Shown one piece after another: positions 2,037 to 32,903 of a stretch of DNA of 51,248 bases; positions within the stretch are counted from its first letter, which is position 1; every line of letters starts with the position of its first letter. The notes beneath the pieces were generated by a model. The model did no database searches, was not told the DNA's origin, and saw only the letters and a list, made by a program, of their open reading frames with translations. The stretch comes from Planctomycetota bacterium (GTDB lineage: Bacteria > Planctomycetota > Phycisphaerae > Sedimentisphaerales > Anaerohalosphaeraceae), in NCBI GenBank assembly GCA_019456225.1, contig VRUI01000032.1:1-51248 (forward strand). Reading direction: 5' to 3'. The translations under genes and the position numbers were made by a program.

Positions 2037-3065
2037 ATGGATAAATTTGCAATAGCTAAAAACGGGATCGATCCCAACCTTGTCCCTAAAAGAACTTTGC
2101 ACACGGGTTCACAAATACCTGCGATAGGTCTGGGAACCTTTGGGTCCGATAGGTTTTCGTATGAACAGGTAGCTGAAGCTGTTAAGGGTGCTATCTCGGT
2201 AGGATACCGCCATATCGACTGTGCATCGGTTTATGGCAACGAGGACGAGATCGGAAAGGTATTTAAAGAAGTACTCGATAGCGGGGAAGTTAAACGTGAC
2301 GAACTTTGGGTGACATCCAAGGTATGGAATGACATGCATGACAGGGTTGTAGAGTCTTGTGAGAAGTCGCTAAAGGACCTTCAGCTTGATTATCTTGATC
2401 TGTTTCTGGTTCATTGGCCGTTTCCTAATTATCATGCAGAGGGGTGCGATATAACTTCACGCAGTCCTGATGCAAAAGCATACATACATGAAGATTTTAT
2501 GAAAACATGGGCTCAGATGGAAAGCCTTGTTGAAAAAGGGCTGGTAAAAAACATTGGAACATCGAACATGACCATTCCCAAAATGAAGCTGTTATTGCGT
2601 GATGCTAAAATAAAGCCGGCTTGCAATGAAATGGAACAGCATCCACATTTCCAACAGCCAAAGTTTTTCCAGTTCTGTATGGACAACGACATTCAGCCGA
2701 TAGGTTTTTGTCCCATTGGCTCACCCACGCGTCCTGATCGTGACAAAGCCGACTCCGATACGGTTGATATCGAAGACCCTGTCGTACAAAAGATCGCAAA
2801 GCGATTGAATGTGCATCCGGCGGTTGTGTGTGTTAAATGGGCCGTTCAGCGAGGCCAGATACCTATACCGTTCTCTGTACATCAAAACGAATATTTGGGT
2901 AATTTACAAAGTGTTACCAAGGATCCGATCACCGATCAAGAGATGGCTGAGTTTTCGCAGATCGATAAAAATTGCCGCCTTATCAAGGGCGATGTGTTCC
3001 TGTGGAAAGATGACCAGACATGGGAATCGCTATGGGATTTAGACGACGAAATTACACCGGCATAA
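2037..3065 (+). CDS. Aldo/keto reductase
   Basis: This 342-residue protein is an aldo/keto reductase, a cytoplasmic NAD(P)H-dependent (beta/alpha)8-barrel enzyme that interconverts carbonyls and alcohols. The catalytic tetrad is complete: Asp61 and Tyr66 in HIDCASVYGNE, Lys95 in VTSKVW, His126 in FLVHWP. The cofactor end is also recognisable (IPIPFSVHQNEYLGNLQS, about 276-293). It is the first gene of a plus-strand operon with a zinc alcohol dehydrogenase, three URO-D-family genes, a mutarotase and a sugar ABC importer, so the likely substrate is a deoxysugar or a product derived from one. The exact substrate cannot be read from sequence. Confidence 0.9.
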   Translation: MDKFAIAKNGIDPNLVPKRTLHTGSQIPAIGLGTFGSDRFSYEQVAEAVKGAISVGYRHIDCASVYGNEDEIGKVFKEVLDSGEVKRDELWVTSKVWNDMHDRVVESCEKSLKDLQLDYLDLFLVHWPFPNYHAEGCDITSRSPDAKAYIHEDFMKTWAQMESLVEKGLVKNIGTSNMTIPKMKLLLRDAKIKPACNEMEQHPHFQQPKFFQFCMDNDIQPIGFCPIGSPTRPDRDKADSDTVDIEDPVVQKIAKRLNVHPAVVCVKWAVQRGQIPIPFSVHQNEYLGNLQSVTKDPITDQEMAEFSQIDKNCRLIKGDVFLWKDDQTWESLWDLDDEITPA

Positions 3066-3104
3066 CTATCATATGATAATAATATCATCTAAAAGGAAAT
3101 GGGA

Positions 3105-4172
3105 ATGGCAAAGAAAATGACAGGGGCAATACTGCCCGGTAACAGTACGGTAGAACTTAAAGAATTTGATGTTCCAACCCCCGGACACGGCGAGGTTTTG
3201 ATCAAGATGAAGTCGTCGACAATTTGCGGTTCTGACATTCGCTGCATTTATAATGAGCACCTTGGCAAAGGCCCCGAAGGTTATCAGCCCGGCCTGGTCT
3301 CCGGCCACGAACCCTCTGGCCAGATAGTAGAAGCCGGCCCCGGTTGCCGCGAATTCAAAGTCAATGATCGTGTTATTGTTTATCATATCTCCGGTTGCGG
3401 CGTTTGTAATGATTGCCGTCGCGGCTACATGATTTCATGCACAAGTGATGAATATCGTCGCGCATACGGCTGGCAGCGTAATGGCGGAATGGCAGAATAC
3501 ATGCTCGCCGAAGAGAAAGACCTTATACATCTGCCCGATGAACTTTCTTACTCCGATGGTGCTCAGGTAGCATGTGGTTTCGGCACCGTTTACGAAGGTC
3601 TCGAAAAGATCGTCATCTCCGGTAACGATGCCGTTTTGATAACTGGTTTGGGCCCGGTTGGTCTGGCAACTGCCATGCTCGCAAAGGCGATGGGTGCACA
3701 GAACATTATTGGTACCGAGGCCATCGATGAACGCATAGAGGTCGCTAAAAACTCCGGCTTGTTTGATACAGTTTTAAAAGCCGGTCCTGATAATGTTCAA
3801 AAGGTAAAGGATTTAACCGGCGGGATGGGTGTAGAAAAGTCAGCTGATTGCTCAGCAAATAATAATGCTCGCCTGACATGTATCCAGGCGACACGTAAAT
3901 GGGGCAAGATCGTTTTTCTCGGAGAAGGCGGCACCTGCGATTTCCAGCCGTCACCGGATATTATTCACGACCAAAAGACTATCTACGGTTCATGGGTAAC
4001 AAGCATCTGGAAAATGGAAGAGCTTGTTGAGCGTATCGTTCGCTGGGGTATCCGCCCGGAAGAACTTATAACTCATCGGTTCCCGCTCGAAAAAGCAGGC
4101 GAGGCGTACGCTCTTATGGCAAGCGGCAAGTGTGGCAAGGTGGCGGTGGTTTTTGATGAAGAGTTGAAATAG
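3105..4172 (+). CDS. Zinc-dependent alcohol dehydrogenase (MDR family)
   Basis: This is a medium-chain zinc dehydrogenase that oxidises a polyol or sugar alcohol with NAD(P). Numbering from the ATG at 3105 (355 residues), the catalytic zinc ligands are Cys41 (ICGSD) and His68-Glu69 (GHE); the structural zinc site is the four-Cys lobe Cys98, Cys101, Cys104, Cys112. A Rossmann motif GLGPVG follows near residue 180. An ATG at 3099 is in frame, but the AAGGA ribosome site at 3092-3096 is too close to it, so 3105 is preferred. It lies 39 bp after the aldo/keto reductase and probably acts in the same pathway, as a fucose/rhamnose or sugar-alcohol dehydrogenase. Confidence 0.88.
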   Translation: MAKKMTGAILPGNSTVELKEFDVPTPGHGEVLIKMKSSTICGSDIRCIYNEHLGKGPEGYQPGLVSGHEPSGQIVEAGPGCREFKVNDRVIVYHISGCGVCNDCRRGYMISCTSDEYRRAYGWQRNGGMAEYMLAEEKDLIHLPDELSYSDGAQVACGFGTVYEGLEKIVISGNDAVLITGLGPVGLATAMLAKAMGAQNIIGTEAIDERIEVAKNSGLFDTVLKAGPDNVQKVKDLTGGMGVEKSADCSANNNARLTCIQATRKWGKIVFLGEGGTCDFQPSPDIIHDQKTIYGSWVTSIWKMEELVERIVRWGIRPEELITHRFPLEKAGEAYALMASGKCGKVAVVFDEELK

Positions 4173-4205: not shown

Positions 4206-5405
4206 ATGGGAATGTTTGAGACGGTTGGTAAGAACTCTGGTCAAGAACGTAAAGAGAATACTCTTAAAAAGCTTGAGCGTATGAAAATGACACTTTCCGG
4301 AAAAGAACCGGATCGTGTTCCTGTTAGTGATTTTTTCTGGGGAGGTTTTGTTCGGCAGTGGCGAAAGGATCTTGGATTGGGTGATGATGCAAGTCCGTAT
4401 TACCACTATGACCTTGACTGGATCGTTACCGTACCTAATATGGATCCTTTTATCAGGTCCTTTGAGACGCTTAAAGAAGATGACATCGAAGTCGTTGTCA
4501 GGACGGGCTTTGGTGCTATTATGCGAAAAAAGTTCTCTGCACCTATGCCGGAGTTTTTGGACTTTGAGACGGATACGATTGAGAAGCTTGAGGGGTTGGT
4601 TTTTGACGATGCTTATGACCGAAGGCGTTATTATGAGTCAGGCGATAATCAGATCGCTGGTATTGGTGACGGGTTTGAAAGAAACTCCCCACCATGGGTT
4701 GAGACAGTCAAATCGCTGCATCCTGATTTTCCCGTGTTCGGAAGTATCATAGAAGTCAATGAGTGCATGACACGTTTGATCGGCCCGGAAAATAATATGC
4801 TCTGGATCGGCATGTATCCTAAACGAATGAACAAGGTGATCGCCAGGATCGGTGAGTTTTATCTTAACTGCGCAAAGGCCCAGATAGATGCTGCTGACGG
4901 TCTGCTCGATGGTCTTGTGATATGGGGCGATGTAGCTTACAAGAACAGTATGTTCTTTTCGCCGGATTACTGGCGTGAGAATTTCAAGCCGTGGGTAAAG
5001 GCGATCACTGATTATGCGCATAGCAAAGGATTGATGGTTATTTATCACGGTTGCGGCGATGTGAGTAAAATACTGGAAGATTATATTGAAATCGGCATCG
5101 ATGCTATGAATCCGCTGGAGGCTAAGGCGGGACTTGATTCGGTAGATCTTCGCAAAAAGTATGGTCGGCGCCTGGGTATCTGCGGTAACAGTAATATGCA
5201 GGTATGGGAAACAGGCGATAAAGACTTGATTCGTAAAGAGATTTTGCGTAAACTTAACGCTGCCAAAGGCGGCAAGTACATATTCCAGTCGGATCATTCG
5301 GTTGCGAGCAATATTTCGGGGCACACGTACGATTATATTGTTAAACTTGTTCGCGAGTACGGGCGATATCCGCTTGATCTTGGCGAGTATGATGTACATT
5401 TATAG
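4206..5405 (+). CDS. URO-D superfamily protein, methyltransferase-like (copy 1)
   Basis: A 399-residue member of the uroporphyrinogen decarboxylase superfamily, which also contains the zinc-dependent corrinoid:thiol methyltransferases (MtaA/MtbA type). The DRVPV segment (about 36-40) and an His-x-Cys motif in VIYHGCGDV (His281, Cys283) are visible; Cys326 follows in GICGNS. The His-x-Cys pair is the feature of the methyltransferase branch and not of true haem-pathway HemE, which makes a haem-biosynthesis role unlikely. The usual third Cys near the C-terminus is not evident; the local segment reads SDHSV. It is the first of three adjacent but divergent family members in a sugar operon. The reaction is unknown; methyl transfer from a methylated sugar or derivative is a hypothesis. 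Confidence 0.8.
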   Translation: MGMFETVGKNSGQERKENTLKKLERMKMTLSGKEPDRVPVSDFFWGGFVRQWRKDLGLGDDASPYYHYDLDWIVTVPNMDPFIRSFETLKEDDIEVVVRTGFGAIMRKKFSAPMPEFLDFETDTIEKLEGLVFDDAYDRRRYYESGDNQIAGIGDGFERNSPPWVETVKSLHPDFPVFGSIIEVNECMTRLIGPENNMLWIGMYPKRMNKVIARIGEFYLNCAKAQIDAADGLLDGLVIWGDVAYKNSMFFSPDYWRENFKPWVKAITDYAHSKGLMVIYHGCGDVSKILEDYIEIGIDAMNPLEAKAGLDSVDLRKKYGRRLGICGNSNMQVWETGDKDLIRKEILRKLNAAKGGKYIFQSDHSVASNISGHTYDYIVKLVREYGRYPLDLGEYDVHL

Positions 5406-5416
5406 AAAGGTGTTAA

Positions 5417-6712
5417 ATGTTACATGATCCAAGTCACAAAACTGAACCTGCCACTGCTGATGAAATTAAACTTTCGGTTAAAGATACTGATATATTGCGA
5501 GGTCTTGCCGGTCAGGTTGCTCAGATCGCTTCGTTGCCTGTGCATAAAGAAAAGGCCCGGCTCTGGACGAAACTTAATGACCTGAAATCTGAAAGACCGC
5601 TCGTCTGGATCAATGAGATCTGCTGGAACGAGATGAATGTCGATGATGAGTTGACTTTGCAAACTGAGCACCCATGGGCACGCGATCAGGAAGATCAGCT
5701 TCGGAAAACTATCTATCAGTGGAAGCATCTGCCCGGCGATATGGTCATTAACGATTTCCTCGTGTGTCCGTTGGCGATCCATAGCACGGACTTCGGTGTT
5801 ATTGAAGATGTGGACATTGTTAAAACCGACGACAGCAGCGAGGTTGTTTCGCGGCATTTCAAAATTCAGATCAAAGAGCCTGAGGATATTGAGAAGATCA
5901 AGATGCCGAAGATCACATATAACCAGGCAGCTACCGAATTAAATTTTCAGGCAATGTGTAAAGTTTACGATGGGATCATGCCGGTCAAAAAACAAGGACA
6001 GACACATATTTGGTTTACACCGTGGGATTACCTGGTCCGGTGGTGGGGGATACAGGAGGCGATGATGGATATGATCCTGCGTCCTGATATGGTTAATGCT
6101 GCCGTTGAACGGATGGTCGATGCGTGGATGGTGGAGTTGGATCAGTTTGAGCAGCAGAATCTGCTTTCGCTGGATAATAATAATACGCGTGTCGGTTCCG
6201 GCGGGTATGGGTTTACGAGCGAATTGCCCGGAGAAGACTTTGATGCGGATCATGTTATGGCTAAAAACATGTGGGGTTGTTCAAATGCGCAGATATTTTC
6301 GGAAGTATCGCCGGATATGCACTGGGAGTTTGCCCTTAAGCATGACTTGCGATGGCTTGAGCGTTTTGGCATGACTTATTACGGTTGTTGTGAGCCGCTG
6401 CATAAGAAAATTGATCTGATGCGTAAAATTCCAAATCTTAGAAAAATATCTATCAGCCCATGGTGCGATATCGAAAGTGTGATAAATCAGGTCGGCGCAG
6501 ATTATGTTATCAGCCAAAAGCCCAGCCCTGCGATCCTTGCCGAGACCGACTGGCAGCCGCAAAGGGCACGAGACGATATTCGCGATGTTCTCGAAAAAGC
6601 CGACGGTAAATGCCATATCGAATTTATCATGAAGGATATTTCAACGGTGCGTCGCGATCCGAAGCGATTATGGCAATGGGCACAGATCGCAATGGAAGAA
6701 GTTTGTCGTTAA
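5417..6712 (+). CDS. URO-D superfamily-like protein (copy 2, divergent)
   Basis: A 431-residue protein whose middle and C-terminal parts follow the URO-D barrel: TPWDYLVRWWGIQEAMMDMILRPDMV (about 201-226), then LERFGMTYYGCCEPL (Cys324, Cys325) and ISPWCDIESV (Cys350), then repeated strand-helix units. It has a long N-terminal extension and lacks the His of the His-x-Cys motif (Tyr-Gly-Cys-Cys instead), so its metal site, if any, differs from copies 1 and 3. It begins 11 bp after copy 1 and ends 16 bp before copy 3, so the three products are almost certainly made together and may form a multi-subunit or sequential system. Function is unknown. Confidence 0.72.
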   Translation: MLHDPSHKTEPATADEIKLSVKDTDILRGLAGQVAQIASLPVHKEKARLWTKLNDLKSERPLVWINEICWNEMNVDDELTLQTEHPWARDQEDQLRKTIYQWKHLPGDMVINDFLVCPLAIHSTDFGVIEDVDIVKTDDSSEVVSRHFKIQIKEPEDIEKIKMPKITYNQAATELNFQAMCKVYDGIMPVKKQGQTHIWFTPWDYLVRWWGIQEAMMDMILRPDMVNAAVERMVDAWMVELDQFEQQNLLSLDNNNTRVGSGGYGFTSELPGEDFDADHVMAKNMWGCSNAQIFSEVSPDMHWEFALKHDLRWLERFGMTYYGCCEPLHKKIDLMRKIPNLRKISISPWCDIESVINQVGADYVISQKPSPAILAETDWQPQRARDDIRDVLEKADGKCHIEFIMKDISTVRRDPKRLWQWAQIAMEEVCR

Positions 6713-6728
6713 TAGAAAGACATGTAAT

Positions 6729-7775
6729 ATGAATTCACGAGAGCGAGTTTTAGCAGTTTTTGAGCATCAGTTGCCGGACAGGGTTCCTTGCTGGTGCGGG
6801 GCGTCTGTTGAGTTTTGGGAAAAGGCAAAGAAGGAACTGAATCTTGATGATGAGGGACTTAGCCTGCGTTTTAGAGATGATTTCAGGCGTGTCTTTGCGG
6901 AGTATTCCGGGCCGGATTTTCCTTTGCAGCATGAGGGGGCAACGTGTAGAACCGCTTTCGGTATTGAACGTGAAGGATATGGTTATGGCCAGCCTCTTAC
7001 CCATCCATTAGCTAAAGCAACTCTCGAAGATGTTGAAGCCTATCTTTGGCCGGACCCGGCATGGATGGATGTTTCAAAGATAAAGGCCACAGCCGAAGCG
7101 TATAATGCTCAGTTTGCGATAATGGGCGGTGAATGGTCTCCATTCTGGCATGACGCAATAGATCTTATTGGCATGGAAAATCTCTACATCAAAATGTATG
7201 CCGAGCCGGAAGTTGTAGAAACTATTCTTAAGCATATCGTCGACTACTATTTTGAGGTCACCAAAAAAACTTTTGAAGTGGCGGCCGATGCAATTGACAT
7301 TTTCTTTATCGGCAACGATTTCGGCAGTCAGACAGGCCCTTTGATGAGCCCGGACATGTTCGATAAGTTTATGGCTCCTCATTTGAAACGATTATGTGAC
7401 CTCGGACATTCTTACGGTTTGAAAACCCAGATGCATTGTTGTGGCGGTATTTACGAATTACTTCCATCTATGATCAACGCTGGCATTCACAGCGTTCATG
7501 CTGTTCAAACAACGTGCAGGGGCATGGAACTGGATAAGCTTAAATCCGAGTTTGGCAACAAGATTATTTTCAATGGCGCAATAGATTCGCATCACATATT
7601 GATGGAAATGGATACCGATGGCGTCAAAGAAGAAACACGCAAAGTACTTGAGACTATGATGCCAGGCGGGGGATATATCGCAGGTGCAAGCCACGATACG
7701 ATACTGGAAGAGACATCGGTCGAAAATGTTGTGGCGATGTTTGATGCGATATACGAATATGGAATTTATTCCTGA
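6729..7775 (+). CDS. URO-D superfamily protein, methyltransferase-like (copy 3)
   Basis: A 348-residue URO-D superfamily protein. It opens with MNSRERVLAVFEHQLPDRVP, the usual start of this group, and carries HCCG at 236-239 (His236-x-Cys238) followed by a GIHSVHAVQ strand and NGAIDSHH. In methylcobamide:CoM methyltransferases the equivalent His-x-Cys binds zinc; the late Cys of those enzymes seems replaced by a His in GASHDTI. The length is typical of the family (about 340-370). It lies directly before the mutarotase gene. No corrinoid protein is encoded nearby, so a cobalamin partner would have to come from elsewhere. The superfamily is clear, the substrate is not. Confidence 0.82.
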   Translation: MNSRERVLAVFEHQLPDRVPCWCGASVEFWEKAKKELNLDDEGLSLRFRDDFRRVFAEYSGPDFPLQHEGATCRTAFGIEREGYGYGQPLTHPLAKATLEDVEAYLWPDPAWMDVSKIKATAEAYNAQFAIMGGEWSPFWHDAIDLIGMENLYIKMYAEPEVVETILKHIVDYYFEVTKKTFEVAADAIDIFFIGNDFGSQTGPLMSPDMFDKFMAPHLKRLCDLGHSYGLKTQMHCCGGIYELLPSMINAGIHSVHAVQTTCRGMELDKLKSEFGNKIIFNGAIDSHHILMEMDTDGVKEETRKVLETMMPGGGYIAGASHDTILEETSVENVVAMFDAIYEYGIYS

Positions 7776-7791
7776 AAGGACGGATAGTTTA

Positions 7792-8130
7792 ATGCAGCGA
7801 TATGGATGGGTAATTGGAGTTAAAGAAGAGAAACTGGATGAATACAAAAAGCTGCATGCGGCTGTCTGGCCGGATGTTTTAAAAATGATCGCTGAATGTA
7901 ATATTACGAATTATTCGATCTATCTTAGAAAACTCCCGGACGGGAAGTACTACCTGTTTAGCTACTTGGAGTATACCGGGGACAATTTCGATGCAGATTG
8001 CGGAAAGATGGCCGCCGATGAGATGACGCAGAAATGGTGGGATGTCTGTATGCCGTGTCAGGTGCCTCTTGAAGACCGCGTCGAAGGGGCGTGGTGGACG
8101 GATATGGAAGAGGTGTTTCACTGCGATTGA
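7792..8130 (+). CDS. rhaM: L-rhamnose/L-fucose-type mutarotase
   Basis: A 112-residue protein of the RhaM (DUF718) family, which interconverts the alpha and beta anomers of L-rhamnose; some members act on L-fucose. Tyr18 and His22 (EYKKLHAAVWP) and Tyr41 (NYSIYLR) are at the expected active-site positions, and a WW pair follows at 82-83. The start is ATG 7792; the open frame extends further upstream but there it only overlaps copy 3. This gene is the best sign that the operon handles a 6-deoxyhexose. The symbol is by family; the fucosidase beside the operon makes L-fucose as likely a substrate as L-rhamnose. Confidence 0.85.
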   Translation: MQRYGWVIGVKEEKLDEYKKLHAAVWPDVLKMIAECNITNYSIYLRKLPDGKYYLFSYLEYTGDNFDADCGKMAADEMTQKWWDVCMPCQVPLEDRVEGAWWTDMEEVFHCD

Positions 8131-8165: not shown

Positions 8166-9689
8166 ATGGTATCTGATTCTGACAATTTTGGCGTCGCTTT
8201 ACGGATGAAGGGGGTGTCGAAGCGATTCCCCGGCACATTAGCTGTGGACACGGTTGACTTTGAGGCTCATGTCGGTGAAGTTCATGCGCTTATGGGGGAA
8301 AACGGTGCCGGTAAGAGTACGCTTATGAAGATCCTTGCCGGGTCGTTCACCGATTATACCGGCAGTATTTACATTGGTCAGAAGGAAGTTAAGCTGCATT
8401 CACCTGCAATTGCCAAAGCTAATGGGATCGGTATGATCTACCAGGAACTTTCACTGGCCCGTCCGATCAGCATTGCCGAAAATCTTCTCGTAGGGCGCCT
8501 GCCTCGCAAAAACGGTTTCCTGATCGACCAAAAAAAAATGATAAAACAAGCTGTAGGTTTACTCAAAAATGTCGGCCTCGATATCGATCCTATGCAAACT
8601 GTTGACCGCATAAGTCAGCACCAGGCGCAGCTAGTAGAGATCGCCAAGGTACTCGGCAGTAATCCCTGCGTACTGGTCATGGACGAACCGACTTCGGCAC
8701 TGTCGCGACAGGAAGTATCTCTCCTGTTCGACATAATCCGCCGGTTGAAGAACCGCGGAATGACCATCATCTACATCTCACACCATCTATCTGAGATATT
8801 TGAGATCGCCGACCGCGTAACCGTAATGCGAGACGGTCGAAAGATCGACACCAAGCCGATAAGCGAAGTAACGCCGGCAAAACTGGTACAGATGATGGTT
8901 GGCCAGGCAATAGATAAGTTCTATGTCCAGCGAAAACCAACTATCGGAAAAACAGTCCTAGATGTACGCAGCCTGACAAGAAAAGGTTTCTTCCACGATA
9001 TTTCTCTACAGGCCCGCAAAGGCGAAATACTCGGCATAGCCGGTCTTGCAGGTGCCGGCAGAACAGAAATGGCACGTTCGATGTGCTCGCTGGACCCCGT
9101 CGATTTCGGTACAGTTACGATCGACGGCAAAGAACTGAAGAATAAATCGTACGCCGAATCAATGTCCAAAGGTCTGCAGTATCTCTCCGAGGACCGCAAA
9201 ACCGATGGGCTCTTTCTAAGACTCGACGTTAAGCAGAACATTGTATCGACACTGCTTAAACCCCACACACATTGCGGAATATACTCATCCCGTCATGAAA
9301 ATTCAACCGCAAGGGATATGATAGACACACTCGACATAATCACTTCATCGGTGACAGAGGGTGTAAGCAATCTTTCCGGCGGCAACCAGCAAAAAGTCCT
9401 GCTGGGCAAGTGGATCGCAGCCGATCCGACAGTGCTGATACTCGACGAACCTTCTCGCGGCGTAGATGTAAAAGCCAAGATGAAAATACACGAAGCGGTC
9501 ATGGCTCTTGCAGATGCCGGCAAAACGATCATCCTGATAAGTTCGGATCTGCCCGAACTGGTCGGCCTTTCCGACCGTCTCCTGGTAATGCGTAACGGGC
9601 ATCTGATCGGCGAGATGCAAAAAAAGGAGCTTTCCGAAGAATCGGTACTGTTGGCAATGAACGGAGACATCGATGAATCGGGAAAATAA
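8166..9689 (+). CDS. Sugar ABC importer, ATP-binding protein (RbsA/MglA type)
   Basis: A 507-residue protein with two fused nucleotide-binding domains, as in ribose/galactose-type (CUT2) importers. Domain 1 has Walker A GENGAGKST (44-52) and Walker B VLVMDEPTSAL (about 170-180), with a degenerate signature (ISQHQAQLVE). Domain 2 has the usual degenerate Walker A (GLAGAGRTE), an intact LSGGNQQKV signature and VLILDEPSRGVDVKAK. Together they drive uptake through the two downstream permeases. Its end overlaps the next gene by 17 bases, indicating translational coupling. The sugar is inferred from neighbours (mutarotase, fucosidase) to be L-fucose or L-rhamnose. Confidence 0.92.
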   Translation: MVSDSDNFGVALRMKGVSKRFPGTLAVDTVDFEAHVGEVHALMGENGAGKSTLMKILAGSFTDYTGSIYIGQKEVKLHSPAIAKANGIGMIYQELSLARPISIAENLLVGRLPRKNGFLIDQKKMIKQAVGLLKNVGLDIDPMQTVDRISQHQAQLVEIAKVLGSNPCVLVMDEPTSALSRQEVSLLFDIIRRLKNRGMTIIYISHHLSEIFEIADRVTVMRDGRKIDTKPISEVTPAKLVQMMVGQAIDKFYVQRKPTIGKTVLDVRSLTRKGFFHDISLQARKGEILGIAGLAGAGRTEMARSMCSLDPVDFGTVTIDGKELKNKSYAESMSKGLQYLSEDRKTDGLFLRLDVKQNIVSTLLKPHTHCGIYSSRHENSTARDMIDTLDIITSSVTEGVSNLSGGNQQKVLLGKWIAADPTVLILDEPSRGVDVKAKMKIHEAVMALADAGKTIILISSDLPELVGLSDRLLVMRNGHLIGEMQKKELSEESVLLAMNGDIDESGK

Positions 9690-10665
9690 AACAAAAAATA
9701 TATTCAGCCTGAGTTTCATCTTTGACCGCATTGGCATCTTTCTGCCTGTCATACTTCTTCTGGTCGCGGGCAGTATGGTTTCAGATAAATTCTTCACAGC
9801 AGGCAATTTTCTAAACATCTTAAACGCGATCGCGCTTCTTGGCATAGTCGCAACAGGCATGGCATTTGTAACGCACTCCGGCAGCATGGCCGACCTGTCC
9901 ATACCGTCTATTATGGCTTTTTCCGGTATTATAACCGTTGCGGCATTGCCTCTTGGCCTGTTTGCAGCGATCATTCTCGGTATCTGCGCAGGTTTGGCGA
10001 TAGGTGCCATGAATGGTTTTGTGGTAGGCAGGCTCAATGCCAACCCGATCCTGTGGACGCTGGCCGTGGCATTTTTCATGGAGGGCTTCATGCGTTTTAC
10101 CTGGAGCAATAACCAGGTTTATCCGGACATCGAACCGGGTACTGCAGGTGCTGCGTTTATCAATATATTTCGCATAAACATCGGCCCCGTACCTCTTATA
10201 GTTGTTGTAATGCTTGCGATGTTCGTGATCGGGCATCTGGTTTTGACCAGAACACGATTCGGCATAGAATCAAAACTGACAGGCTCATCACGTCCGGCAG
10301 CAAAGACTACCGGCATCAATGTGCCGCGTATAGTTATGATGAATTTTCTCGCCGCAGCTTTATGTGCTTCTATCGGAGGAATCTTTATCACCTCGATGAC
10401 CAAACTTGGAGTATTCTACCTCGGCACCGGCTACGATTTCAAAGCCGTAACCGCCGTCGTAATCGGCGGCATGATGCTAAGCGGCGGACGAGGAAACATG
10501 CTGGGCGTATTCGGCGGCGTAATGGTGATCGGGCTGCTAACCAATATTATGACATTTATCGGGATTAACACTTTCCAGCAGAACATCGTAACCGGCGGTA
10601 TCTTCATCGCCGTCGTCGGCTTTGGCCAGTATCACTTACGCAAACGGGGGAAAGACTATGCTTAA
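9673..10665 (+). CDS. Sugar ABC importer, permease (RbsC type)
   Basis: A 330-residue inner-membrane permease of the ribose-type (BPD_transp_2) family with about eight to ten hydrophobic segments. The coupling and C-terminal pattern (GYDFKAVTAVVIGGMMLSGGRGNMLGVFGGVMVIGLLTNIMTFIG, about 254-298) is characteristic. The short N-terminus (MNRENKTKNIF) precedes the first membrane span. It overlaps the ATPase gene upstream and the fusion permease downstream by a few bases, so the three are translated as a unit. It would form the channel with the downstream permease domain. Confidence 0.9.
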   Translation: MNRENKTKNIFSLSFIFDRIGIFLPVILLLVAGSMVSDKFFTAGNFLNILNAIALLGIVATGMAFVTHSGSMADLSIPSIMAFSGIITVAALPLGLFAAIILGICAGLAIGAMNGFVVGRLNANPILWTLAVAFFMEGFMRFTWSNNQVYPDIEPGTAGAAFINIFRINIGPVPLIVVVMLAMFVIGHLVLTRTRFGIESKLTGSSRPAAKTTGINVPRIVMMNFLAAALCASIGGIFITSMTKLGVFYLGTGYDFKAVTAVVIGGMMLSGGRGNMLGVFGGVMVIGLLTNIMTFIGINTFQQNIVTGGIFIAVVGFGQYHLRKRGKDYA

Positions 10666-12916
10666 AAAACCTTCCCGTTTCAATATAGCTGGTTTTCTCG
10701 ACAGCAACCGCGCACTGCTGATGCTGATAATACTCTTTTCGGCTTTGTCTGTTTTCGCTCCGAATTTCTTTACAACGCATAACATAACGACGATCCTGAA
10801 AGGCGCAAGCCTAAACGCCATAGCTGCGATAGGATTTACAGTAATATTTATCCTCGGACAGCTCGACCTGTCCATAGGTGCCGTTGTTATGCTTTGCGGG
10901 ATGCTGACCATAGGCCTCCAGCCCCAGATCGGATGGGCCGGTTCGTTTGCTGTTTCCATACTTGCCGGCGCGGTCGTAGGACTGGTTAATGGCCTGCTCG
11001 TCGTAAAGGCAAAAATAAACTCATTCATAGTAACCCTCGGAACAATGACGGTTGTAATGGGTCTGATGCACCTCTACAGCAAAGGCGGATCGAAAGCGAT
11101 CGATGATTTTCGTTTTGCAGACTTCCTCGAAGAACCGGTCCTTACATTCTTTCCTCCGATAGTGATCATAACAATTTTACTTGTGCTTGCTTTTACTTTC
11201 TTCCTTAACAAAACCCCCTTAGGCCGCGGGTTTTTCATCGTCGGCGGAAACCCTGAAACCGCCTGGCTTGCAGGTTTAAAACGTGACCGATACCTCATAG
11301 CCGGTTTCATAATATGCGCATCGACCGCCGCAATAGGCGGATCATTATTCGCTGCCGGACTAAGCTCGATGACCTCAGCGGCGGTTCTGGCAAATAGAAC
11401 TCTAATGACAGTTCTCTCTGCGGTGATTATAGGCGGCGCGCTGATGAGCGGCGGAAAGGGAAGCGTGCTGAAAAGCTACTTCGCCGTCCTTATGCTTACA
11501 ACCCTTTTCAACGGCATCGGATGCTTCGGTCTCGGATTCGAGGTTCAGATATTTATCAATGGAATAATCCTCGCATTGGTTGTACTATATGAAGCTTATG
11601 TAATATACCGCCACGACCTGCTCAAAGGGCAAAGGCCCGACCTGATAAATGAAGCTCAGACCCTGGAAACGAAATGGTCTGCAAATGTAAATAACGAAGA
11701 AGGAGACGGATCAATGAACGACAAGGAACGTTTTAGTTTAACTTGCATCACTATCGCTGCCATCGTTGGTATAGTGGCAATTTTCGCCATGTACTTCATG
11801 CATACGACCATGCCGCCTCGTATAGTTTCCAGCCCAACCAACGCTGCTGGGCAAGTGGACGTATACTCTCTAACCGGAACAGACGGCCAACCCTACATCC
11901 TTAAGCAAACCGAAACACCGGTTATCCCCCCACGTCCAAAGGACCCCAAATCCCTCCCGGAAACGGACAAGGGCCACTGGTGGGATATTGAATATGCCGG
12001 GTGGAGTGTCGAAAAGGCAGAGATGCCGAAATCTGACGCCAGCGGGCCGGCCGGGAAACAGGTTATTCTTCTAAAGGCCGGCGATCATCCGTACTGGACC
12101 GCTTATGTCAACGGATTTAAAGCAATGGCAAAAGCTTACGGGATGGAGACAAAAATCTTCAACGGCAACTGGAACATTGATCTTCAGGCCCAGCAGGCAA
12201 ACCAGGCCATAAACGAACGTCCCGATATGATCATACTCGCCCCCGTAGACGCCACTGCATGTACGCCGCTGCTAAGACGGATCAACAAAGCCTCTATCCC
12301 ATGCATTACTTCCAATACCATTCCTGTCGATGAGGCAATGAAATACTGCCTGGCCTGGACCGGGCCTGACGACTGGGGACAGTTTAGAATGCTCGCCAGA
12401 AAATTCGCTGATGCTCTCGACAAAAAAGGCGGCTATGCAATAGTAAGACACATGCCCGGAAGCTCCCCGTTTTTCGCCCGAACATATTCTCCGATAACCG
12501 AATTACGAGAATACGCTCCCGAAATGGAACTGCTGGCAATGGATACAGCCAATCTCGAAGCCGAAGGGACTATGCAACTGGTCTCGGCATGGATAACGAA
12601 ATACGGCGATGAATTGAAAGGTTTGATTCTTGCTGGGGATGGTTTCTCGATGACGGGAGCATTGGAAGCGATCAGCAAGTCTTCAAGAAAAGATATTGTG
12701 ATTGTCGCCGCCGGTAACAGCAAAACCGGAATGGATTCGATCAAGGCTGGTGATGCACTGGCTATCACTTACCAATCAGCTGAAGGTGATGGTGCTATTG
12801 CCGTACACACCGCCGCCGAATGGTTTCAGGGCAAAGAGTTGACACCGGTGCGCTATCTGCCCAAGCACATCATCACGCAAGGCGATGTAGATGAGTTCAT
12901 GCCCCCGCAATGGTGA
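10658..12916 (+). CDS. ABC importer permease fused to a substrate-binding domain
   Basis: From ATG 10658 (GGGGGAAAG ribosome site) the frame gives 752 residues in two parts. Residues 1 to about 330 are a second RbsC-type permease (VMGLMHLYSKGG; TVLSAVIIGGALMSGGKGSVLKSYFAVLMLTTLFNGIG). After a hydrophilic linker comes a membrane anchor (about 360-382) and then a periplasmic sugar-binding domain of the ribose-binding type (KQVILLKAGDHPYWTAYVNGFKAMAKAYGM, PDMIILAPVDATACTPLLRRI, LILAGDGFSMTGALEAI). These are normally separate proteins. At the junction there is a canonical AAGGAGA ribosome site at 11699-11705 and an in-frame ATG at 11714 that would give a free, membrane-anchored 400-residue binding protein. 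So both a fusion and a separate binding protein may be made. Confidence 0.85.
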   Translation: MLKKPSRFNIAGFLDSNRALLMLIILFSALSVFAPNFFTTHNITTILKGASLNAIAAIGFTVIFILGQLDLSIGAVVMLCGMLTIGLQPQIGWAGSFAVSILAGAVVGLVNGLLVVKAKINSFIVTLGTMTVVMGLMHLYSKGGSKAIDDFRFADFLEEPVLTFFPPIVIITILLVLAFTFFLNKTPLGRGFFIVGGNPETAWLAGLKRDRYLIAGFIICASTAAIGGSLFAAGLSSMTSAAVLANRTLMTVLSAVIIGGALMSGGKGSVLKSYFAVLMLTTLFNGIGCFGLGFEVQIFINGIILALVVLYEAYVIYRHDLLKGQRPDLINEAQTLETKWSANVNNEEGDGSMNDKERFSLTCITIAAIVGIVAIFAMYFMHTTMPPRIVSSPTNAAGQVDVYSLTGTDGQPYILKQTETPVIPPRPKDPKSLPETDKGHWWDIEYAGWSVEKAEMPKSDASGPAGKQVILLKAGDHPYWTAYVNGFKAMAKAYGMETKIFNGNWNIDLQAQQANQAINERPDMIILAPVDATACTPLLRRINKASIPCITSNTIPVDEAMKYCLAWTGPDDWGQFRMLARKFADALDKKGGYAIVRHMPGSSPFFARTYSPITELREYAPEMELLAMDTANLEAEGTMQLVSAWITKYGDELKGLILAGDGFSMTGALEAISKSSRKDIVIVAAGNSKTGMDSIKAGDALAITYQSAEGDGAIAVHTAAEWFQGKELTPVRYLPKHIITQGDVDEFMPPQW
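11699..11716 (+). promoter_or_regulatory. Internal ribosome-binding site and start inside the permease/binding-protein fusion
   Basis: AAGGAGA at 11699-11705 is spaced 8 bases from an in-frame ATG at 11714, just before the membrane anchor of the binding domain (MNDKERFSLTCIT). A ribosome site this good exactly at the domain junction suggests that two genes existed here and the stop codon of the first was lost, or that internal initiation still supplies extra binding protein. Confidence 0.65.
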
Positions 12917-12991: not shown

Positions 12992-14509
12992 CTATAATCG
13001 GGATATTTCACCGGTGATCTTAAGAACAAAAGCATGATCACAAGGCTTAGTCGATGGGAATTTAATTTTCAGGTTGTCAGCGGTTCTTGACCATTTCAAA
13101 TTAGCATCGCTACCGATCATCTCAATTGATTCGATCTTTCCGAGAGCCTTTTGTTTTTTAGATAAAGATTCGATCAAGACACTGCCATTGGCTGGCCAAT
13201 CAAGCACAATAGCATACAATGATTTGACCTGTTTATCTTCGTTATATCTCACGGAAAAGCGAATATCTTCTGCGGTAAATTCGCCAATATGTTTTTCAGT
13301 GAAATGTCCTTGTTTAACTTCTGTAGGGCCTTCACCGAAAGTGACCCACGGGCGAGTCTCATAAATGGCTTGCCCGTTAAGGTCCAGCCATTTTCCGATT
13401 TCCAGCAAACGCTGCTGCACCGGCAAAGGTATTTCGCCATTGGCTTTTGGGGTAATATTCAAAAGCAGATTTCCATTTTTGCTTACAATATCGACCAAAC
13501 CATCAATCAGCCGATTAGCTGATTTGTAATTTGGGTTCATATCATGACACCACGTATCCCAGTCTATCGAATCGTCATTTAGCCATTCAAACTCACTCAA
13601 CGTACTCATCCGCCCGCGTTCGATATCAAGAATGCCAGCTCCTTTGGCCAGGTCCTGATTTTTATAAGTAACGCCAACATCTTTCCCCCATTCCAAGCTG
13701 CGATTGTAATAGTGGGCGAGCATCTCGCATCTGTATTTTTCGCCGATTTTATTTGTGCGGCTGTCAAACCAGAGCAGGTCAGGCTGATAATTATCTACAA
13801 CTTCTTTTACTTTATTCAGCCATAACTGACAGAACTCGTCGTCTGGCTTTGGTTTTTTAAAATCGCCGGGTTTGGTCTTGGGCCCGTACAAGCCGGCGTA
13901 TTCCGGGTTGGAAGTGTCGTATCTCTCGTCATAGGTGGGATACCATGCCCATAACCATTGATGATGGAATGTTGTGATGAATTTAATACCCTGCTTGCGT
14001 ATGGCTTTTTCTAAATCGCCAACAATATCGCGTTTGGGACCCATATCTTTTGCATCCCATTTTGTCAGATCACTATCCCACATAGCAAAGCCATCGGCAT
14101 GTTCAGCGACCGGTCCGGCAAAACGAGCACCGGATTTCTTAAATAGTTTTGCCCAACTGTCCGGATCAAATTTCTCAGCCTTGAACATTGGGAGAAAGTC
14201 TTTGTAACCGAATTTTTCGGCCCCGCCATGAACTTCTATATGGTGCTTAAATATGTCGTGTCTGTTACTCTTTTCATTATACATATAATGAGGGTACCAC
14301 TCATTGCCGAATGCCGGTACTGAATATATGCCCCAATGAAAATATATCCCAAATTTTGCATCTCTAAACCATTCCGGATTATCATGCTGGGTTACCGATT
14401 CCCAGGTAGGTGCATATTTATCTACTGCCAAGGAATTTCCACTTAAAGCTAAAAGAAAACTAACACTTAGTAATAGAATCAACTTAATTTTAGTGGGATG
14501 AAATAACAT
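12992..14509 (-). CDS. Secreted alpha-L-fucosidase (GH29)
   Basis: A 505-residue glycoside hydrolase family 29 enzyme that removes alpha-L-fucose from glycans with retention. From ATG 14509 (AAAGGA ribosome site) an N-terminal signal peptide is seen (KIKLILLLSVSFLLALSGNSLA, cleavage near residue 28). The catalytic barrel carries WFRDAKFGIYFHWGIYSVPAFGNEWY (47-72), AEHADGF (135-141, the substrate-binding His region) and LLWFDS (245-250), where Asp249 is the expected nucleophile. The C-terminal part from about 380 is a beta-sandwich. It converges on the importer operon, so fucose released outside or in the periplasm could be imported by it. The two repeats of GGGATTTCCCAT upstream may belong to its control region. 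Confidence 0.93.
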   Translation of the reverse strand: MLFHPTKIKLILLLSVSFLLALSGNSLAVDKYAPTWESVTQHDNPEWFRDAKFGIYFHWGIYSVPAFGNEWYPHYMYNEKSNRHDIFKHHIEVHGGAEKFGYKDFLPMFKAEKFDPDSWAKLFKKSGARFAGPVAEHADGFAMWDSDLTKWDAKDMGPKRDIVGDLEKAIRKQGIKFITTFHHQWLWAWYPTYDERYDTSNPEYAGLYGPKTKPGDFKKPKPDDEFCQLWLNKVKEVVDNYQPDLLWFDSRTNKIGEKYRCEMLAHYYNRSLEWGKDVGVTYKNQDLAKGAGILDIERGRMSTLSEFEWLNDDSIDWDTWCHDMNPNYKSANRLIDGLVDIVSKNGNLLLNITPKANGEIPLPVQQRLLEIGKWLDLNGQAIYETRPWVTFGEGPTEVKQGHFTEKHIGEFTAEDIRFSVRYNEDKQVKSLYAIVLDWPANGSVLIESLSKKQKALGKIESIEMIGSDANLKWSRTADNLKIKFPSTKPCDHAFVLKITGEISRL

Positions 14510-14890
14510 AATTACATTCCTTTCTTTTTCATAGTAGGAAGATATTAATCTGGGATTTCCCATATACCATTATCCGGGATTTCCCATTTAAGCGTTCACA
14601 AAACATTATTCTACCCTTTCAATGCTAATATTTTTACCAAATTCAACTTGAACTATCAAGACTTCTCTTTTCCGAGGCGGTTTTCTTGAAGATTTATACA
14701 AAAGACTGGCCATGAAGTATGTTATTGCCCTTTAGGCCATCCTTTTTGCTTTCACCCATTGGGTTCTCCAGATTAGAACAGCAAAACAGTCTTAAACAGC
14801 ATCCACAAGCCCTATACTATCATAATTTCAAAATTTTGCTCGGATTTACTTGGGAAATCCGAGTTTAATGTTATAATCAATGGCTTAATG
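14510..14890. promoter_or_regulatory. Fucosidase upstream region with repeated GGGATTTCCCAT sites and a hairpin
   Basis: No gene is seen here. Two direct copies of GGGATTTCCCAT lie 24 bp apart (14552-14563 and 14576-14587) upstream of the minus-strand fucosidase, one helical-turn multiple compatible with paired operator binding. A perfect 9-bp hairpin, CTCGGATTT/AAATCCGAG, lies at 14839-14863 and contains GGGAAATCC, the reverse complement of the core of those sites. Operator function is inference from repetition and position only. Confidence 0.4.
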
Positions 14891-14930: not shown

Positions 14931-15929
14931 TTATAACCAGTCACCAACTGGCAATTGCTCAACCGCTGTTCTTAATACAGGATCGACATTTGTATATACC
15001 TTGTTTGTTAAATTTGGCGATGAATGTTCCAGCAATCTCTGGGTTACAGCTGTCGAGACCCCATTTTGTGCTAGCAAAGAGCAGAATGTTTTTCGAAGAT
15101 CATGAAATTTCAAATCCACCAATCCTGCCCCTTTACAAATCTTCCGCCATTTTCGATGGTTGAATTTAGTGCGAAACAACTTCTCCTGGCCAACATCCAG
15201 ACCGCATACATATTTTGAAAGTACTGACATTATTTCTGCTGACACAGGACGCGAAGCCATGCTCTTTTTGGTTTTCCGGCTTGTTGTTGAGATCGAGTTT
15301 TTCTCAAAATCAATATCACTGATTTTTAACGAATCAATGTCTCCGCGACGCAGGCCAGTTGCCAACGCCAATAATACACGATTTTTCATTAAGGGATACG
15401 GTTCCGTTACCTTAAGCAATTTCTTGATCTCTGTATCATTTAGCGATCTTACTGGCTTTTCTTCCTCCTTGAGTTCCTTGATTTTCAGATTTTCGTTCAA
15501 GTATCTTTTGGCCTTGCACCAGTTGATGAACGTTTTCAAGTTTCTGATGTCCTTGTTGAGTGTTGGGCGACTAACCTCAGTTCCTCTTTGAAGTATGAAT
15601 TTGTCCATGACATGCTGTGTAATCTGTTTTGAACTGCATTTACCAACAAGACGCTCAAAGTTTCGCAAGGATAACGCTATTTCATAAAGTGTACCTTCAG
15701 TGACTCCCTGAACTTTTTTGGCTTGCCTGTACTCATCGACCATCTGCTGCCAACCGGCGACAACCATGCCTGTAAACACATCAGAATTGAGCTGGCTATA
15801 CTTCAACTGGCAAAAATGCTCAGCCAGTTTTTTGCTGTGCAAAGCCTTGGCTTTTCGGCAGCCACTTTCGTACCAGCCAACCCACCAGCCCTTAATACCT
15901 TTTCTTTTATAGATCCATGTCTTTTTCAT
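14931..15929 (-). CDS. Tyrosine recombinase / integrase 1
   Basis: A 332-residue site-specific recombinase with all catalytic residues: Arg194 (ATGLRRGDI), a Lys in the beta-hairpin near 219, His276 and Arg279 (FHDLRK), His302 (LLEHSS) and nucleophile Tyr312 (VYTN). The N-terminus has an AP2-like arm-binding segment (WIYKRKGIKGWWVGWYESG) and a SAM-like core-binding domain at about 60-145. The tRNA-like fragment next to its stop codon suggests it integrates the element at a tRNA-Thr gene. Codon use and A/T richness match the plasmid-like genes to the right. A second recombinase lies at the other side of that block. Confidence 0.9.
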   Translation of the reverse strand: MKKTWIYKRKGIKGWWVGWYESGCRKAKALHSKKLAEHFCQLKYSQLNSDVFTGMVVAGWQQMVDEYRQAKKVQGVTEGTLYEIALSLRNFERLVGKCSSKQITQHVMDKFILQRGTEVSRPTLNKDIRNLKTFINWCKAKRYLNENLKIKELKEEEKPVRSLNDTEIKKLLKVTEPYPLMKNRVLLALATGLRRGDIDSLKISDIDFEKNSISTTSRKTKKSMASRPVSAEIMSVLSKYVCGLDVGQEKLFRTKFNHRKWRKICKGAGLVDLKFHDLRKTFCSLLAQNGVSTAVTQRLLEHSSPNLTNKVYTNVDPVLRTAVEQLPVGDWL

Positions 15930-22609: not shown

Positions 22610-23023
22610 ATGTATGAGAACAAAACCTATATCACCATGCAGGACGTAATGGAGCAGATGGACATCTCTGACAAGACCCTCCACAGGATGATCGAAGAGG
22701 GTGATCTACCCGATTTCACTTATGGTTCCAGGACATCCCGTAAAAAGGGCTGGCACTCCGCCGTCCTCGAAAAACATGCCATGGAAAGATATGAAAGATC
22801 AGCCAGCTACAAGAACGTCAGTAACGCCGGTAAGGTCGTCACTGAGGATGTGAGAGTAGTGCCTCTGGGTTGTAGTGATCGTGCTGTGGCCCATAAGGAT
22901 ACTGACTTTGATGATGGGCACTCCCCTAAGAAGAAGTTGAGTAGCAAAATAGTGCCTAAGGGCGTGAGGTCCTCCACCCGAAAGTCCCGCGTTTCGGCAG
23001 GCTTTTCCTATCCGCCTACCTAA
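22610..23023 (+). CDS. Helix-turn-helix protein (excisionase/AlpA-like N-terminus)
   Basis: A 137-residue protein. Residues 6-55 are an HTH_17/AlpA-type domain (YITMQDVMEQMDISDKTLHRMIEEGDLPDFTYG followed by RKKGWHSAVLEKHAMERYE), typical of recombination directionality factors and small regulators. From about residue 64 onward the gene runs antisense through the 3' end of integrase 2; that tail is basic, Ser-rich and without visible domain, so it may be read-through of non-selected sequence. Paired with the recombinase it may control excision or inversion of the cassette. Confidence 0.65.
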   Translation: MYENKTYITMQDVMEQMDISDKTLHRMIEEGDLPDFTYGSRTSRKKGWHSAVLEKHAMERYERSASYKNVSNAGKVVTEDVRVVPLGCSDRAVAHKDTDFDDGHSPKKKLSSKIVPKGVRSSTRKSRVSAGFSYPPT

Positions 23024-23824
23024 AATTTGACGATTCAGCGGCTCACCATCCGGTCCGAGGAACACAGCTTCAGCAGTTTTAATCTTACGACCTTCCCTGG
23101 TATTATCAAGCACTTCCAAAGCAGCACCGTTTAAACCAATTGTCCTTCTCTTCCTGCCCTTGCCTACGACAGTAATTGTCTTCTGCTTGAGATTACAGTT
23201 CTTCCATCTCAGACCGCATAGTTCACTGGCCCTAAGCCCGGTATTTGCAAGAAACACTACCCATGGATGGGCTACATCAGAGCAGCTCTCCAGAACAGCC
23301 TCATATTCTTCCTGATCAAGGAAATTTACTTCTGGTGGGTCTTCCTTTAACTTCTTGATTCCATCTGCCGGATTCTCAATGCCGTAATTCTCATGAATAT
23401 ACTTGCACAGGGACTTGATGGCACACATCGTATTATTGACGGTCTTGTTAACAAGGCCTCTGCTCATCTGAGAGTTGAGATATGAATTGATGCTGAATTT
23501 AGTCAGGTCGCTAATATAGACGACGCTGTCCGGCAGGAAAGCCATGAACCTATTAACTTCGGGAACATACAGTTTGGCTGTTCTCTCTGTATATCCCTGA
23601 CAAGAATCCACCCAATGACCTACTGCCTCATCCAGCAGTACCGGCTCAATAATCTCTGTACGTTTGAGCACCTGCTCCCGTTTCTCACAATGTTTTTTAA
23701 AGCTTAGGGCAACCTTCTTATCTTTGAAGGACTTACTTCCTTTGTCCACACTCCCATCTTGAAGAGTTACATGCCAGAACACTCTCCATCTCTTACCTGT
23801 CTTTTCCCATCCTATCGATGCCAT
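22799..23824 (-). CDS. Tyrosine recombinase / integrase 2 (XerC/D-like)
   Basis: A 341-residue recombinase with the full catalytic set: Arg198 (NTGLRASELCGLRW), a beta-hairpin Lys near 222 (VVGKGRKRRTI), His287 and Arg290 (HALRHYFATQLL), His313 (LMGHST) and nucleophile Tyr323 (QRHYSH). The N-terminal core-binding domain spans about 62-148. Its layout is closer to XerC/D and small transposon recombinases than integrase 1 is. The last 225 bases overlap the convergent HTH gene. It lies about 200 bp from the tRNA-Leu gene, a usual integration target, though the tRNA keeps its own terminator. Confidence 0.9.
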   Translation of the reverse strand: MASIGWEKTGKRWRVFWHVTLQDGSVDKGSKSFKDKKVALSFKKHCEKREQVLKRTEIIEPVLLDEAVGHWVDSCQGYTERTAKLYVPEVNRFMAFLPDSVVYISDLTKFSINSYLNSQMSRGLVNKTVNNTMCAIKSLCKYIHENYGIENPADGIKKLKEDPPEVNFLDQEEYEAVLESCSDVAHPWVVFLANTGLRASELCGLRWKNCNLKQKTITVVGKGRKRRTIGLNGAALEVLDNTREGRKIKTAEAVFLGPDGEPLNRQILGRRIGKACRNAGLSGGGPHALRHYFATQLLLRGVPIIKVSILMGHSTITTTQRHYSHILSDDLTGVTDVLVAG

Positions 23825-32609: not shown

Positions 32610-32903
32610 ATGTCACTAAAGTACTTACAAAATGTTGCAACGCTAGAGCTGGATACCGAAAAATGTGTCGGCTGCGGAATGTGCGTGACGGTTTGTCCGC
32701 ATGCAGTATTCGTTATTGAAGATAAAAAGGCGATTATCGTCGAAAAGGACGCCTGCATGGAGTGCGGAGCGTGCCGGGAGAATTGCCCAGTGTCTGCAAT
32801 TGCTGTAAGATCGGGGGTGGGTTGCGCTTCCGGGATTATTAATGGGTTCATCCGGGGGACAGATCCTACGTGTGATTGTGACAAAAACGGCGGTTGCTGC
32901 TGA
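32610..32903 (+). CDS. hgcB: Mercury methylation ferredoxin HgcB
   Basis: A 97-residue 2[4Fe-4S] ferredoxin with all marks of HgcB. Two cluster motifs are complete: Cys19, 22, 25, 29 (CVGCGMCVTVCP) and Cys49, 52, 55, 59 (CMECGACRENCP). Cys72 is the extra conserved Cys, and the C-terminus ends in a vicinal pair Cys96-Cys97 preceded by Cys88 and Cys90, thought to bind Hg(II) and pass it to HgcA. A good AAAGGTG site precedes ATG 32610. It should reduce the HgcA corrinoid after methyl transfer. It is directly downstream of hgcA, as in nearly all known methylators. Confidence 0.95.
   Translation: MSLKYLQNVATLELDTEKCVGCGMCVTVCPHAVFVIEDKKAIIVEKDACMECGACRENCPVSAIAVRSGVGCASGIINGFIRGTDPTCDCDKNGGCC

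Follow-up and report, generated by a model that had tools for sequence, protein, structure and literature searches.

The window analysed here is a stretch of 51,248 nucleotides (positions 1 to 51,248, forward strand) of contig VRUI01000032.1 from a Planctomycetota bacterium of the Anaerohalosphaeraceae (assembly GCA_019456225.1). Three adjacent genes in it, U1 (4206-5405, + strand, 399 amino acids, aa), U2 (5417-6712, +, 431 aa) and U3 (6729-7775, +, 348 aa), all read in the same direction with gaps of 11 bases between U1 and U2 and 16 bases between U2 and U3, encode proteins of the URO-D superfamily; U1 is considered here as a candidate sugar O-demethylase component and the divergent U2 as a candidate substrate-side methyltransferase. 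They are followed by the gene of a 112-aa RhaM-family 6-deoxysugar mutarotase (7792-8130, +; Pfam rhaM 2.3e-28, start codon read from the sequence) and by those of a sugar ABC transporter: an ATPase of the AraG/RbsA type (8166-9689, +; NCBIfam AraG 6.5e-151, below the cut-off), which is conserved with U1, U2 and U3, a permease (9673-10665, +; Pfam BPD_transp_2 2.3e-31), and a 764-aa protein (10622-12916, +) in which a permease is fused in frame to a periplasmic sugar-binding domain (Pfam BPD_transp_2 1.4e-30 at aa 55-320 and Peripla_BP_4 4e-39 at aa 482-739). Just downstream, on the opposite strand, lies a GH29 alpha-L-fucosidase (12992-14563, -; Pfam Alpha_L_fucos 8.1e-102), which possibly belongs to the same substrate route. 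We consider it rather probable that this operon serves to take up an O-methylated 6-deoxysugar and to remove its methyl group via an anaerobic B12-dependent module, although both the methylated substrate and the reaction are what we infer.

The original prediction had placed three adjacent URO-D superfamily genes between dehydrogenases and a mutarotase, and the coordinates and the flanking genes were correct; membership of the superfamily follows from Pfam for U1 (URO-D 7.8e-19) and U3 (3.6e-30) and from a structural model for U2. The upstream dehydrogenases are an aldo-keto reductase (2037-3065, +; Pfam Aldo_ket_red 8.8e-54) and a Tdh/IolM-like zinc alcohol dehydrogenase (3099-4172, +; Pfam ADH_N 1.3e-24 and ADH_zinc_N 3.6e-23; NCBIfam tdh 4.1e-50, below the cut-off). 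Both were considered as members of the conserved module described below and were rejected, since they are absent beside U1, U2 and U3 in relatives.

A Pfam search with U2 matched no family. Its AlphaFold model (pLDDT 95.4), however, superimposes on the URO-D structure 3cyv with Z 19.5 (rmsd 3.8 Å over 290 residues), on the Methanosarcina mazei methyltransferase structures 4ay8 and 4ay7 with Z 16.6 and 16.5, and on MetE with Z about 11. The U1 model (pLDDT 86.4) gave Z 27.9 to URO-D and 25.1 to 4ay7. Sequence searches of the PDB returned nothing for U2 and weak matches to 4ay7 for U1 and U3, and the structures of OdmB, MtoB and CdmB were missing from the structure-search lists for these models, which does not by itself exclude kinship with them. 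By fold (U1 and U2) and by Pfam (U1 and U3), the three proteins thus belong to the URO-D superfamily, which includes substrate methyltransferases of corrinoid-dependent O-demethylase systems. It was also considered whether they are true uroporphyrinogen decarboxylases or degenerate, functionless copies, and automatic annotation would indeed call U1 and U3 members of the uroporphyrinogen decarboxylase family on the basis of the Pfam domain. In the NCBIfam hemE model (TIGR01464), U3 scored 32.5 bits against a cut-off of 303, and U1 and U2 were not listed. A role in haem synthesis was rejected on these scores, and the operon serves sugar uptake, so the earlier remark that haem synthesis makes no sense here was borne out. 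Each subfamily is moreover strictly conserved across phyla, and this explanation is given practically no credence.

The conserved motifs bear on the position of the three proteins within the superfamily. Among 14 aligned orthologues each, the motifs H281-G-C283-G and Q-S-D363-H364 of U1, and H236-C-C238-G and S321-H-D323 of U3, are invariant (14/14 in both cases), and Y322-G-C-C325, E402 and D407 of U2 are invariant in 56/56 aligned sequences, which upholds the Tyr-Gly-Cys-Cys previously noticed in the middle protein. The His-x-Cys pair had been described as typical of methylcobamide:thiol methyltransferases. The pair itself is real in U1 and U3, but the likeness was overstated: in the alignment, the third zinc-ligand Cys of 4ay7 (in P-G-C-G) is replaced by S-D-H in U1 and S-H-D in U3, so that none of the three proteins carries the complete His-x-Cys...Cys triad of MtaA/MtbA. 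Zinc may thus plausibly be bound by U1 and U3, but through a ligand set other than that of MtaA; for U2, zinc binding is doubtful. The phylogenetic placement, when carried out, did not favour the thiol enzymes either. U1, U2 and U3 all fall outside the MtaA clade (support 97/81), which holds 4ay7 and the proteins of loci L103 and L154, whereas U1 groups (100/99) with URO-Ds from the corrinoid clusters of loci L163 and L146. CmuC was placed on a separate, unresolved fork, and a CmuA reference was not found on the stretch of pCMU01 that was searched.

An identity as MtaA-type thiol methyltransferases was therefore rejected for U1-U3, and, lying outside the MtaA clade and lacking the third Cys, they look more like substrate-side (MT1) enzymes than methylcobamide:thiol ones, as judged from their sequences. 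A broader form of the same idea is that one or more of them act on the thiol or folate side, either as MT2 enzymes or in a cobalamin-independent manner like MetE. The retained His-x-Cys pair, the Z score of U1 against 4ay7 and a partial similarity of U1 and U3 to the MtaA/CmuA models of NCBIfam (1e-20 to 1e-22 for U3) speak for it; the equivalog cut-offs were not reached, and the genome already has an MtaA/CmuA-like candidate with H-x-C...C elsewhere. Together with the missing ligand and the tree, this makes it an unlikely explanation.

Relatives of U2 were collected by scanning one genome per species, which gave 80 loci at 45-84% identity. The carriers include Planctomycetota, Hydrogenedentota, Kiritimatiellota, Verrucomicrobia, Spirochaetes, Bacteroidales, Lachnospiraceae and others, and U1, U2 and U3 each have orthologues in other phyla within the same range of identity, which excludes chance. 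Near U2, RhaM was found in 22 of the 80 loci, another URO-D in 38, U1 in 15 and U3 in 16, all of these counts being lower bounds as many contigs are short. The set of U1, U2, U3, RhaM and ABC transporter, complete or partial, occurs in Planctomycetota, Spirochaetes and Hydrogenedentota, and a sister genome carries U1, U2, U3, RhaM and RhaT at one locus and U2, U3, RhaM, GH29 and a sulfatase at another. In Spirochaete and Lachnospiraceae loci, the recurring genes are LacI or AraC regulators, URO-Ds, RhaM and the ABC transporter, and no cluster of isomerase, kinase or aldolase recurred in at least four of these loci. The core module is a self-contained import-and-modify unit, and a conserved module of LacI, U1, U2, U3, RhaM and ABC genes with no isomerase, kinase or aldolase cluster is what would be expected of a peripheral sugar-to-sugar step. 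As a separate observation, an orphan fragment with 89% identity to the last quarter of U2 lies on another contig of the source genome (G000:C86 8804-9103, -; locus L030), where it adjoins an intergenic repeat that has a further copy near 6970 of the same locus.

The link of this family to corrinoid chemistry was followed through RACE (PF14574), the reductive activase, an ATPase that activates methyl-transferring corrinoid proteins. Within the phylum, RACE is present in 35/39 genomes that have a U2 homologue and in 98/353 genomes that do not (Fisher p 3e-14, unweighted by phylogeny), and, with genomes again unweighted, it is present in 48/50 genomes from many phyla that carry close U2 copies. 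All of these 50 genomes have a match to TIGR02370, and about 46 have a standalone corrinoid protein, as judged by the length of the open frame; the RACE and corrinoid protein genes are often about 2 kb apart. Some of the RACE matches are of the CODH/ACS type, and most carriers have the shorter type, according to score and frame length.

Physical linkage is more telling than these co-occurrence figures. In a Lachnoclostridium locus (L103), the genes of a corrinoid protein (TIGR02370 5.7e-59), an MtaA/CmuA-like URO-D, an AraC-like regulator and U2 are consecutive, and regulators and then sugar ABC genes follow behind U2. Two loci of Opitutae (L144 and L146) have U2 homologues together with a corrinoid protein and RACE, L146 also with DUF1638, and a Subdoligranulum plasmid (L154) combines U2 with a GH78 rhamnosidase, other glycosidases, several URO-Ds, RACE and an MtaA-like protein. 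In Pontiella sulfatireligans (L162), an anaerobe that grows on fucose, rhamnose and fucoidan (PMC7356697), a URO-D and RhaM are accompanied within 8 kb by a sodium symporter, DUF1638, RACE and a corrinoid protein. The family of U1-U3 is thus strongly tied to corrinoid methyl transfer, and a corrinoid methyltransferase module is likely. In a Candidatus Marispirochaeta locus (L160, 1206-7799), a corrinoid protein gene was also seen, followed by URO-Ds and three CobW-like GTPases assigned by eye.

Several observations weigh against methyl transfer from a methylated sugar. The window contains neither a corrinoid protein of the methyltransferase type nor RACE; one or both lie beside U2 homologues in L103, L144, L146 and L154, and beside RhaM plus URO-D in L162. 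The association with RACE, computed with all genomes counted equally, may partly reflect shared anaerobic life and kinship. The zinc-motif His is missing from U2, no gene in the window proves a methylated substrate, and some copies of U2 have the fucose isomerase FucI or FGGY kinases as neighbours, which also suits ordinary use of fucose. An alternative explanation is that the URO-Ds help to break down deoxysugars in the usual way and transfer no methyl group; they might, for instance, use a metal to assist a C-C or C-O bond reaction of fucose or rhamnose. It is consistent with the plain fucose genes (FucI and FucP-like permeases), with the zinc-ligand His absent from U2, and with a corrinoid gene beside U2 in only 3/80 loci within the flanks examined. 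The presence of RACE in 48/50 carriers and of standalone corrinoid proteins in about 46/50, and the direct linkage in L103, L144, L146, L154 and L162, argue against it, and we regard it as quite improbable.

The source genome itself supplies the genes that the operon lacks. A corrinoid protein of the methyltransferase type is encoded on contig C97 (6203-6835), about 7 kb from a U2 paralogue, and RACE genes are located on contigs C61 and C90, so that both a corrinoid protein and its reductive activase are found in this genome. The RACE gene of C90 belongs to a CODH/ACS cluster of AcsE-like MeTr, AcsD, CooC, RACE, AcsC, AcsB and CooS (AcsD, CooC and AcsC assigned by eye). Besides U2 and its paralogue on C97, the genome has 16 distinct PF01208 proteins above the cut-off, several of them in sugar loci. 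The best match, on C47, was considered as HemE and rejected, since both alignment and NCBIfam placed it as an MtaA/CmuA-like protein with H-x-C...C. By these sequence assignments, the genome has the components that would be needed to accept a methyl group and put it to use, though outside the operon. On C90, a URO-D gene (G000:C90 7033-8166, locus L031) was also observed beside a large glycosidase (8195-10978), an alpha-L-rhamnosidase by eye.

The substrate class was deduced from the genes around U2. Of the 85 genes lying no more than 5.5 kb from U2 in 37 loci, 13 encode a GH29 fucosidase, the commonest domain; SSF and MFS transporters come next with 11 genes each, then sulfatases with 5, and GH95, fucose isomerase and FGGY kinase with 2 apiece. 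Fucosidases, FucP-like permeases, fucose isomerase and sulfatases adjoin U2 in several phyla. In 10 loci the fucosidase beside U2 belongs to a single GH29 subfamily (mostly 51-77% identity), in 8 loci U2 is accompanied by one FucP-like permease (53-84% identity; fucP 242-255 bits, cut-off 280), and a full L-fucose isomerase above the cut-off stands beside U2 in L097. Because RhaM, RhaT, GH29/GH95, FucP-like permeases and fucose isomerase adjoin the relatives, the substrate class fits fucose first and rhamnose second. Fucose isomerase requires a free 2-OH. Methyl-fucose is preferred to fucose because a corrinoid methyltransferase needs a methyl donor, because the core module is an import-and-modify unit, and because methylation at O-2 would prevent fucose isomerase from acting. 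Rhamnogalacturonan II naturally contains 2-O-methyl-fucose, and a known GH139 enzyme requires the methyl group on aryl substrates (PMC12282258).

Granted a corrinoid methyltransferase module, an O-methylated 6-deoxysugar is the likelier donor, most likely an O-methyl-L-fucose, with O-methyl-rhamnose as the second candidate. U1-U3 may instead be corrinoid-dependent with another donor, such as a methyl glycoside, a methylated uronic acid or a different methyl compound sharing the locus. All of the corrinoid evidence fits this equally, members of the URO-D superfamily use many donors (PMC10418091), and a more distant U2 relative lies among varied sugar genes, GH78, GH2 and GH105 (the last two by eye). 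The close copies of U2, however, occur repeatedly with RhaM, GH29, FucP-like permeases and FucI, which points to 6-deoxyhexoses, and another donor is considered fairly unlikely. The earlier proposal that O-methylated fucose or rhamnose is demethylated here therefore stands as regards the sugar class and the tie to corrinoids, whereas the methylated substrate and the methyl transfer are still only presumed.

In the mechanism proposed here, an exo-fucosidase would free the methyl sugar, the ABC transporter would take it up, and the RhaM protein would interconvert its anomers. U1, U2 and U3 would be MT1 enzymes, possibly differing in the methyl position or the sugar that they act on, which would transfer the ether methyl to one corrinoid protein serving all three, encoded on contig C97 and held in the Co(I) state by the RACE ATPase. 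The methyl group would then pass either to tetrahydrofolate, via the AcsE-like enzyme encoded with CODH/ACS, or to a thiol, via the MtaA/CmuA-like enzyme of contig C47, and the demethylated sugar would enter ordinary catabolism. If the sugar is 2-O-methylated, demethylation must precede aldose-ketose isomerisation. The division of steps among U1-U3 and the final methyl acceptor are perhaps as outlined. The fullest version of the proposal, in which each of U1-U3 is a corrinoid methyltransferase with its own position or sugar specificity and the O-methyl of fucose or rhamnose is fed into the Wood-Ljungdahl pathway, is tentative and falls a little short of an even chance.

Further observations concern the rest of the window. 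The permease/binding-domain fusion at 10622-12916 is resembled by a 773-aa frame in a Hydrogenedentota locus (L076:5184-7505), and its binding part starts with an odd P-R-P-x-D-P...H-W motif that also opens a free protein of about 570 aa in Spirochaete loci. Two phage-type integrases on the - strand (14931-15929 and 22799-23824) bracket the region of 16-22 kb, which encodes proteins with no clear families and is possibly a mobile insert adjoining the sugar operon. HgcA is encoded at 31548-32597 (+; NCBIfam HgcA_corrinoid 422.6 bits, cut-off 275; motif N-V-W-C-A-A-G-K) and is directly followed by a 97-aa two-cluster ferredoxin resembling HgcB (32610-32903, +), a predicted mercury-methylation pair in this planctomycete.

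O-Methylated sugars occur in plant and algal polysaccharides, and the demethylation route for them found in the literature searched is an oxygen-requiring P450 system. No account of corrinoid demethylation of sugars was found in a search whose coverage left out most subscription journals. An anaerobic B12-dependent route, if true, would explain how sediment and gut anaerobes use O-methylated sugars, would connect the degradation of polysaccharides with one-carbon metabolism and acetogenesis, and would offer a testable function for many genes now labelled 'uroporphyrinogen decarboxylase'. It would be an oxygen-independent equivalent of the P450 route, widely distributed among Planctomycetota, Kiritimatiellota, Spirochaetes, Bacteroidales and gut Lachnospiraceae.

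Several known systems share features with the one proposed. The corrinoid O-demethylases MtvB, OdmB, VdmB, MtoB and CdmB belong to the URO-D superfamily (PMC13222342, PMC8630106, PMC10418091), and the aromatic O-demethylase systems (MtvABC, Odm/Vdm and MtoABCD) likewise combine a URO-D MT1 with a corrinoid protein and RACE, pass the methyl to folate or a similar acceptor, and occur in anaerobes. The loci described here differ in their setting of sugar uptake and fucosidase, in the three MT1-like proteins per operon, and in that the corrinoid protein and RACE are usually encoded elsewhere; the systems of the aromatic enzymes MtvB, OdmB, VdmB and MtoB are the nearest working analogy. MtaA/MtbA (4ay7) share the fold with U1 and U2 and the His-x-Cys pair with U1 and U3, but they differ in the third zinc-ligand Cys, in the His missing from U2, in clade and in model scores, U1-U3 being below the cut-offs. 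Type 1 mlp clusters, too, have several URO-D paralogues that share one corrinoid protein, along with RACE, but they carry sulfur/selenium genes where the present loci carry deoxysugar genes (PMC10418091). CmuC of Methylorubrum extorquens CM4 (pCMU01) is a URO-D superfamily protein in a corrinoid C1 context, but it serves chloromethane use and matches U3 weakly (21.5% over 45% of the query). In the P450 demethylation of 6-O-methyl-D-galactose, a sugar found in porphyran, the methyl ether is also removed before catabolism, but that reaction needs oxygen and yields formaldehyde (PMC10033563), whereas the proposed route would be anaerobic and would keep the methyl group on a carrier.

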